From contig JAIOIK010000199.1 of NCBI GenBank assembly GCA_019912545.1, positions 1-37,398 of the forward strand: a stretch of 37,398 nt of DNA. Reading direction: 5' to 3'. This DNA is from Ignavibacteria bacterium. GTDB taxonomy: Bacteria; Bacteroidota; Ignavibacteria; Tepidaquicellales; OLB5. How positions within the stretch are numbered: the stretch's first letter is position 1; every line of letters starts with the position of its first letter. Positions 14,032 through 37,273 of this stretch are shown in pieces. The translations under genes and the position numbers were made by a program. The notes under the pieces were generated by a model, which saw nothing but the letters and a program-made list of their open reading frames with translations, had not been told where the DNA came from and did no database searches.

Positions 14032-14068
14032 CCCCTCTCCTTTTAGGAGAGGGGTTAGGGGTGAGGTT
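14032..14068 (-). repeat. AACCTCACC-family palindromic repeat, copy 2 (inverted)
   Basis: On the minus strand the unit reads AACCTCACCCCTAACCCC and then a perfect 10-bp hairpin (arms 14032-14041 and 14045-14054, 3-base loop). With copy 1 it forms a large inverted arrangement about 100 bp long just after the substrate-binding gene. It could act as a processing or attenuation hairpin that separates expression of the binding protein from the ATPase and permeases. Confidence 0.8.
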
Positions 14069-14079
14069 ATCAGTAAAGC

Positions 14080-33071: not shown

Positions 33072-33080
33072 TATTATTCT

Positions 33081-33623
33081 CTAGGAAAAAAATTCATCAT
33101 TATTCCATCTTATTGGATTATATATAATATATTCTCTCTCATTATCAAGTTCTTTTTCATCTCTTATTACGCGATCATAGAAGCTATCTTGCCATTTGAA
33201 ATCCTTATTAATTTCTTTTCTAATTCTTTTTGTGCAGATTGATTTAAATTGCCCGACGATTGATCCTAATGAATCCGGTTTTAGAGTTCCATTTGTAGAG
33301 ACGACCCGGTGGGTCGTCTCACTTGAAGTGTTGTTTCGATTATTTCCAGGATTATCCATCAAAGCTATAATTGCATGAAAATGATTCGGCATAACTACAA
33401 ATTGATCTAAAATTACATAATTTCTGACTTCGGGAGTTTTAAGCCATTCTTCAGTTACAATCCTTCCTTCAGGTGATACAATCATTTCCTGGTTGTATAT
33501 CCTGCCAAAATAATGTTTCATACCATTCGTGCAAATCGTAATAAAATATGATGATGGTATCGAATAATCCCAACCTTTTAACCGGGCCGATTCAATTCTA
33601 TATTTATTCCTGAATAATGTCAC
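33081..33623 (-). CDS. REP-associated tyrosine transposase (RAYT, Y1/IS200-like)
   Basis: The 180-residue protein has the HUH motif HFH at 81-83 (VVMPNHFHAII), a probable catalytic Tyr149 in QDSFYDRVIRDEKEL, and the conserved family ending YIIYNPIRW (165-173). RAYTs cut and join single-stranded palindromic REP sequences and are domesticated relatives of IS200 transposases. The start is GTG at 33623. Residues 102-110 (ETTHRVVST) are encoded by a perfect copy of the AGACGACCC palindrome, in the variable linker between the HUH strand and the DSLGSIVGQFKS helix. Another copy lies 15 bp upstream of the start. The gene stops 9 bp before ribD, so it may drive or carry riboflavin gene expression. All catalytic residues appear intact. 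Confidence 0.9.
   Translation of the reverse strand: MTLFRNKYRIESARLKGWDYSIPSSYFITICTNGMKHYFGRIYNQEMIVSPEGRIVTEEWLKTPEVRNYVILDQFVVMPNHFHAIIALMDNPGNNRNNTSSETTHRVVSTNGTLKPDSLGSIVGQFKSICTKRIRKEINKDFKWQDSFYDRVIRDEKELDNEREYIIYNPIRWNNDEFFS
33298..33320 (-). repeat. RAYT-linked REP palindrome inside the RAYT coding region
   Basis: Arms GAGACGACCC and GGGTCGTCTC (10 bp, perfect) with a 3-base loop, reading GGT on the plus strand. It is in frame in the RAYT gene and adds no stop. It lies in opposite orientation to the copy at 33638-33658. Confidence 0.9.
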
Positions 33624-33637
33624 TTTTGCTTTACTTT

Positions 33638-33658
33638 AGACGACCCACCGGGTCGTCT
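33638..33658 (+). repeat. RAYT-linked REP palindrome upstream of the RAYT start
   Basis: Arms AGACGACCC and GGGTCGTCT (9 bp, perfect), loop ACC, followed by CTAC. It sits 15 bp upstream of the RAYT GTG, the usual location of a REP paired with its RAYT. In the transcript the hairpin would be close to the RAYT ribosome-binding region. Confidence 0.9.
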
Positions 33659-33688
33659 CTACAAAAAATATTAAAAAAGCGAATTCAG

Positions 33689-34159
33689 TCAAATATCAAT
33701 CTCCACTAATTTCGAAAACATATCTTCGTCATCCAGATATTTCTTTATCACTTCAAGGCTTTTAATCTGGTTTGGCCAGTGTATCAATTTCGATGCTTCC
33801 TCAAATGTTGCCCACTTATACTCGGTGTGTTCATCTGATATCGTGCATTTATCACTCTTAACAATTGTCAAAAATACCGGTGACATGCAGATCTTATCTG
33901 ATATAGCCAGATAAAATGTGTTTATCCTTGGGATACTGTATATTTTCTGAGGTGTTAAGCCTGTTTCTTCCTGAAGTTCCCTTGTAAGAGTATCTTTTGT
34001 ATGTTCATGTGATTCTATTGTTCCGGTTATCATCTGCCATATTCCGGGGTATATTTTAGCTTTATCGGACCTTTTAAGTAAAAGGAATTTATACTTCTGG
34101 GGATCACTTGTCTTAAGGCAGATATGAAGCTCAATATAATTGGTTACAATTTGAGGCAT
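33689..34159 (-). CDS. Nudix hydrolase
   Basis: The 156-residue protein contains a complete Nudix box at 46-68 in the G-x5-E-x7-R-E-x2-E-E-x-G-L form (G46, E52, R60, E61, E64, E65, G67). It binds Mg2+ and hydrolyses a nucleoside diphosphate linked to another group. The WQMITG lead-in resembles dihydroneopterin triphosphate/dATP pyrophosphatases of the NudB type, but the substrate cannot be fixed from sequence. The start is ATG at 34159. It lies 65 bp upstream of the RAYT gene with the REP palindrome between them, and is divergent from the Spy-like gene. Confidence 0.9.
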   Translation of the reverse strand: MPQIVTNYIELHICLKTSDPQKYKFLLLKRSDKAKIYPGIWQMITGTIESHEHTKDTLTRELQEETGLTPQKIYSIPRINTFYLAISDKICMSPVFLTIVKSDKCTISDEHTEYKWATFEEASKLIHWPNQIKSLEVIKKYLDDEDMFSKLVEIDI

Positions 34160-37032: not shown

Positions 37033-37069
37033 AACCTCACCCCCAACCCCTCTCCTACGAGGAGAGGGG
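37033..37069 (+). repeat. AACCTCACC-family palindromic repeat, copy 3
   Basis: The leader AACCTCACCCCCAACCCC is followed by a hairpin with arms CCCCTCTCCT and AGGAGAGGGG around a short loop, where one base (G) differs. It lies 6 bp after the kinase stop and may end that transcript. Confidence 0.8.
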
Positions 37070-37124
37070 AGAGAAGCAGCAAAGTTTGAGTTTTGTTTAG
37101 ATTATTGGTTTTGACAGATAATTG

Positions 37125-37226: not shown

Positions 37227-37245
37227 TATAAAAATTTTTTTGTAG

Positions 37246-37273
37246 AGACGACTCGGTGAGTCGTCTTTTTTTT
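37246..37273 (+). repeat. Variant REP palindrome followed by a T-run
   Basis: Arms AGACGACTC and GAGTCGTCT (9 bp, perfect), loop GGT, then seven T's to 37273. Compared with the RAYT-linked copies, one base in each arm has changed together (C to T and G to A), so pairing is kept. With the T-run it could act as a terminator on the plus strand. Confidence 0.8.

Follow-up and report, generated by a model that had tools for sequence, protein, structure and literature searches.

Genes and features at the locus

The window, the whole stretch of DNA analyzed here (37,398 nt), contains a RAYT (TnpAREP) gene with a REP palindrome inside its reading frame and a second, inverted REP just upstream. The relevant features are the following.

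33081–33623, minus strand: RAYT/TnpAREP gene; 180 aa, start GTG; HUH motif NHFH (residues 80–83), catalytic Y165, W144
33298–33320, plus strand: in-gene REP palindrome; 10-bp arms, 3-nt loop; codes for E102–S109 in the beta3-alphaC loop
33295–33298, plus strand: GTAG foot adjoining the in-gene palindrome; antisense to the RAYT gene
33637–33659, minus strand: upstream family member, in reverse orientation to the in-gene REP; its GTAG is on the sense strand of the gene; core 14 nt before the GTG start
37245–37267, plus strand: third family REP; differs from the pattern by 3 mismatches and shows the paired change GACTC/GAGTC
33074–33690, minus strand: RAYT unit with both REPs; present in the window, absent from genome G006

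The encoded protein gives a weak match to Pfam Y1_Tnp and a match to NCBIfam REP_Tyr_transpos (E 6.5e-17) whose 61.8 bits lie under the strict cut-off of 80. Its AlphaFold model (mean pLDDT 86) finds its best Foldseek match in PDB 4er8, a TnpAREP bound to a REP hairpin (E 2.2e-6). The HUH motif and Y165 are intact, and Y165 is invariant across 49 sequences. Profile and model together identify the gene as a RAYT/TnpAREP, and binding and cleavage of the cognate REP are presumed. The gene is of low genomic copy number and is not an IS: the other RAYT relatives in the genome are at most 49% identical to it, and one locus is common to six species of the genus. RAYTs are regarded as domesticated transposases with no known benefit to the host.

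The REP-encoded residues are located in a loop (residues 89–118) between strand 81–88 and helix 119–137. Within it, residues 99–111 form the lowest-confidence part of the model and the sole long stretch with pLDDT < 50, and are predicted to be disordered, which agrees with the tolerant linker proposed by the sequence-only reading. The loop corresponds to the variable beta3-alphaC insertion of TnpAREP subclass 2.4, and, as in this subclass, a conserved C-terminal extension is absent, the chain ending at residue 180. The consensus motifs of the subclass are present as NHFH, WQ at 144–145, and YIIYNP; the last has Tyr instead of Asn before NP, as do the nearest relatives of the window RAYT. Judged from these sequence motifs and the loop, the protein falls in subclass 2.4.

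The in-gene REP is a perfect palindrome, GAGACGACCC-GGT-GGGTCGTCTC, lying wholly within the gene. Its 23 nt correspond to codons 102–109 (E T T H R V V S), and all 180 codons remain open, confirming the in-frame palindrome with 10-bp arms first noticed from the letters alone. The span then given, residues 102–110, holds once the adjoining CTAC foot, which extends into T110, is counted with the core. GTAG is the tag of many REPs. Folded as single-stranded DNA, the element has a predicted energy of -11.4 kcal/mol (z ~ -4.7).

The REP family in the window and genome

When up to 3 mismatches are allowed, three sites in the window match the palindrome (33298–33320, 33637–33659, and 37245–37267), compared with 0.01 expected. 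We reject a chance palindrome because of this number and of the excess over synonymous-codon shuffles described below. The claim that the element belongs to the RAYT gene's own REP family is supported. The family is small and not abundant: only five GTAG-tagged members with up to 3 mismatches are found in the 3.66-Mb genome.

The REP flanking of the window RAYT is one-sided, consisting of the upstream inverted copy; no family REP was found within 600 bp downstream of the gene. The 5' part of the gene is enclosed by the in-gene and upstream REPs, which form an inverted pair with 59-nt arms of 78% complementarity, 300 nt apart.

The RAYT clade at the riboflavin locus

RAYT orthologues are found at the rib locus in six species of the genus. 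They lie between the NUDIX gene and ribD in genomes G000, G002, G005, and G009, and between ribD and ribE in G008 and G012, with the same orientation on either side of ribD (L137, L139, L141). Either the unit moved locally past a single gene or it arrived on two separate occasions. An insertion that is recent and specific to the window genome is rejected, since an in-gene REP occurs at the same place in five other genomes of the genus.

Four of the six orthologues (window, G005, G009, and G012) have intact palindromes. Their in-gene arms read AGACGACCC (window, L022), AGACGTCCC (L023), and AGACGCCCC (L024), and the opposite arm is the exact complement each time, so that AGACG[A/T/C]CCC pairs with GGG[T/A/G]CGTCT. 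The changes between A-T, T-A, and C-G pairs jointly alter residues T/S/P in one arm and V/D/G in the other. Furthermore, the upstream REP carries the same variant as the in-gene REP in this clade. In genomes G002 and G008 (L026 and L050), the loops are enlarged by long inserts and one arm is damaged; L025 and L050 were taken as the same gene of one genome. L050, the closest relative that bears a name, stems from an Ignavibacteria bin, which makes this group the most likely source of the window.

The RAYT unit is absent from the NUDIX–ribD junction in G003, G006, G010, and G011. G006 is the nearest relative of the window genome (ribD 91% identical), and here the stop codon of the NUDIX gene overlaps the start codon of ribD. 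More distant species carry the RAYT at the same junction, which suggests that G006 lost it.

In-gene palindromes across RAYT relatives

An inverted repeat with a score of at least 8 is present in the linker of 75 of 105 distinct sampled RAYT homologues. Synonymous-codon shuffles reach this score in 8.6% of cases, and the N-terminal portion of these genes does so in 5/105. A sample of public genomes gave a similar picture, with an in-linker palindrome at 63 of 79 distinct loci from more than 20 phyla, and nearly all additional Bacteroidota RAYT genes carry one. Roughly 20–30% of RAYT relatives have no detectable in-gene palindrome. The palindromes match the REPs around their own gene: with up to 3 mismatches allowed, 51% of in-gene cores have a match in their own 600-bp flanks, compared with 2% when flanks are swapped. 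The types of mismatch (9 G-U versus 6 A-C) do not separate RNA from DNA hairpins.

The peptides encoded by the REPs are wholly different among relatives (VETLQCNVST, SRDAMHCVST, and VGATRRVAPT, among others). Palindrome-bearing relatives encode other residues in other frames, and those without a palindrome (L035, L037, L049) have other, usually shorter linkers. In the set examined, no homologue encodes the same linker residues without forming the palindrome. The sequence-only reading had named the existence of such homologues as evidence against itself, and its proposal withstands this comparison.

On the sense strand, the GTAG of in-gene REPs is in phase 0 in 34 cases, in phase 1 in 11, and never in phase 2, in which TAG would be a stop codon. 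On a quick tree with many weak branches, the in-gene REP must have switched frame 13 times or more, and one REP is read in different frames in the sister genes L065 and L095. These two observations indicate repeated gain or replacement of in-gene REPs throughout the family. A clean gain, recognizable by an empty linker in a close relative, was not found: the linkers of L088/L118 and L051/L053 are too divergent, and in Flavobacterium all 12 orthologues have the REP.

The linkers of L036, L166, L168, and L133 contain tandem arrays of REPs or half-REPs, all in frame. The array in L036 (minus strand, about 970–1770) comprises many VETPNV units, and that in L168 repeats VETGHA. In L065, L079, L082, L092, L104, L114, and L161, the in-gene palindromes run several base pairs past the GTAG/CTAC feet and look as if they derived from inverted REP dimers whose center was lost.

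The main rival to a role for the in-gene hairpin is tolerated insertion. REPs spread by the RAYT would land near or in its own gene, the flexible loop would be the only site where they survive, and the in-gene copy would be roleless, renewed by insertion or by conversion from the flanks. This account explains the frame changes and the tandem arrays; the varied offsets, the single REP read in two frames in L065/L095, the predicted disorder of the loop, and the occurrence of REPs in many unrelated genes (PMC3733652) also favor it. Palindrome scores, however, are bimodally distributed with a peak at complete 13-bp arms, and do not form a continuum of decay. Furthermore, the account does not explain the conservation of single copies described below, and overall we consider it rather unlikely.

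Single-copy conservation in Flavobacterium

The in-gene REP is present in 12 of 12 Flavobacterium orthologues, whose proteins are 85–94% identical and whose neighboring genes are the same. With 1 mismatch allowed, the 20-mer AGACAGGGCATGCCCTGTCT has, in 11 gene-bearing genomes, a single site located in the RAYT gene, or no site if the stem differs. No site occurs in 12 genomes that lack the RAYT gene. A diverged hairpin downstream of the gene has not been homogenized with the in-gene REP. Despite this lack of another close copy for renewal, the 14-nt core is invariant across the 12 species, whereas the surrounding linker is hypervariable in length and sequence.

The four-fold and six-fold degenerate codons of the core are invariant in 4 of 4 cases, compared with 17 of 51 elsewhere in the gene (chance roughly 0.01). 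The core lies within an invariant run that ranks among the four longest, but its invariance is not unique, as 24 of 459 other 14-nt windows are also fully invariant. Two species carry double changes that preserve pairing and replace both amino acids (GAGGCAGG/CCTGCCTC and GATACAGG/CCTGTATC). The covariation is modest, being equaled in 34 of 500 shuffles. These findings in Flavobacterium speak for selection on pairing and against a core renewed from elsewhere in the genome, and the evidence they provide is moderate.

In a second single-copy genus, also of Bacteroidota, the picture is mixed: the REP is partly decayed in L157, the only intact gene, and L210 and L211, which have an internal stop, keep more of theirs.

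Relation to known systems

The arrangement itself was published in 2018. Quentin et al. (PMC6006769) describe in-frame REPs between HuH and Y as a distinguishing and unique feature of TnpAREP subclass 2.4, which corresponds to RAYT group 4 of Bertels, and the window gene is a further instance of this trait. According to the same text, subclass 2.4 has GTAG-tagged long or double-foot REPs and is abundant in Bacteroidota and Cyanobacteria. The window RAYT shares with it the NH[IFV]H HUH, WQ, and Y-xxx-NP motifs, the beta3-alphaC loop of variable length, and the in-frame REP between HuH and Y; we find no structural differences. That text takes the view that in-gene REP insertions may have little impact. 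To this picture our analysis adds the swapped-flank comparison, the paired substitutions that change amino acids, the single-copy conservation in Flavobacterium, and the counts of reading frames. Relative to the accessible part of the 2018 study, the new element is evidence, drawn from sequence comparison, that points to conservation of the in-gene hairpin as such.

The E. coli TnpAREP (PDB 4er8) belongs to subclass 2.2. It has a like fold and presumably a like GTAG-based recognition of REP hairpins, with 16% sequence identity to the window RAYT. PMC6006769 describes the in-gene REP as unique to subclass 2.4.

GTAG/CGTC REPs have also been described inside many unrelated genes (BMC Genomics 2013, PMC3733652), where, as in the window RAYT, in-frame REPs are tolerated in coding regions. 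The host genes in that study are mostly unrelated to the REP, whereas in the window it is the gene for the presumed REP-binding enzyme that hosts the REP. A further difference is that the site in the RAYTs, the loop between HUH and Y, is common across phyla. Our search of an open-access library turned up no account of a RAYT regulating itself by way of a REP within its gene.

Origin and possible role of the in-gene hairpin

The sequence-only reading had left two alternatives side by side, a REP inserted into a tolerant linker and a REP that the gene keeps. The data lean to the second, through the paired substitutions and the Flavobacterium conservation, and weaken tolerated insertion.

Another explanation is a REPIN-like unit, in which the upstream REP and its inverted in-gene counterpart would be two ends around the 5' half of the gene and serve transposition or local rearrangement. 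The inverted pair described above, the conservation in orthologues of the upstream REP near the start, and the position of the RAYT on either side of ribD among species of the genus are consistent with such a unit. A mobile unit with these two ends was not found, though, many relatives have a downstream REP only or no flanking REP, and the empty site in G006 lacks the whole gene instead of its 5' half, and this explanation is improbable. A constraint on the protein, with a required loop peptide whose codons form the palindrome by accident, would fit the conserved TGHAL peptide of Flavobacterium, but is rejected as having hardly any likelihood because the palindrome appears in other frames with wholly different peptides and paired substitutions alter amino acids in both arms, the low yield of synonymous-codon shuffles and the predicted disorder of the segment also standing against it.

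The explanation that we favor, and hold to be moderately probable, is that the loop of a subclass 2.4 RAYT gained a cognate REP, which has since been retained as a hairpin acting in cis and co-evolving with the enzyme's REP specificity. The disordered beta3-alphaC loop would tolerate any peptide, allowing a cognate REP to be gained there in frame, and across the family such gains or replacements would have recurred. Once present, the sequence would be retained as a hairpin and not as a peptide, tracking the specificity of its own RAYT. We infer that cis binding by the encoded enzyme maintains the hairpin, in single-stranded DNA during replication or in the mRNA. Such a hairpin would label the gene as a substrate of the enzyme that it encodes, providing a site for transposition, nicking, or autoregulation.

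Support for this explanation comes from the palindrome excess, the identity with flanking REPs, the paired amino-acid-changing substitutions, the occurrence in two frames, and the single-copy conservation. Part of the palindrome excess may reflect rapid turnover instead of selection.

More tentatively, and with somewhat less than an even chance in our estimation, the in-gene REP could be a conserved cis-acting element of subclass 2.4 that is selected as nucleic acid, with the enzyme recognizing its own gene or mRNA for self-targeting or autoregulation, and that is kept even where the genome has no REP population. That a hairpin is retained in coding sequence across many phyla, even as the only close copy, suggests that the RAYT acts on its own gene, in a role that would be independent of REP spreading.

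Other repeats and RAYT-like genes

Other in-gene palindromes are found in three further RAYT paralogues of the same genome, L013, L014, and L015 (GGAACGGTC, GAGACAGGTTT, and GGGACGAC), and the flanks of these genes hold related copies; the reading frame of L015 is interrupted by an internal stop. Distant RAYT-like genes of the same genomes have flanking hairpins, and those of L018 all lie outside the matched stretch of the gene. A dispersed repeat with CCCCTCTCCTACGAGGAGAGGGG is found in the window at 37033–37072 and 14032–14071, and also in two other species of the genus (L144 and L146), three times in L146.
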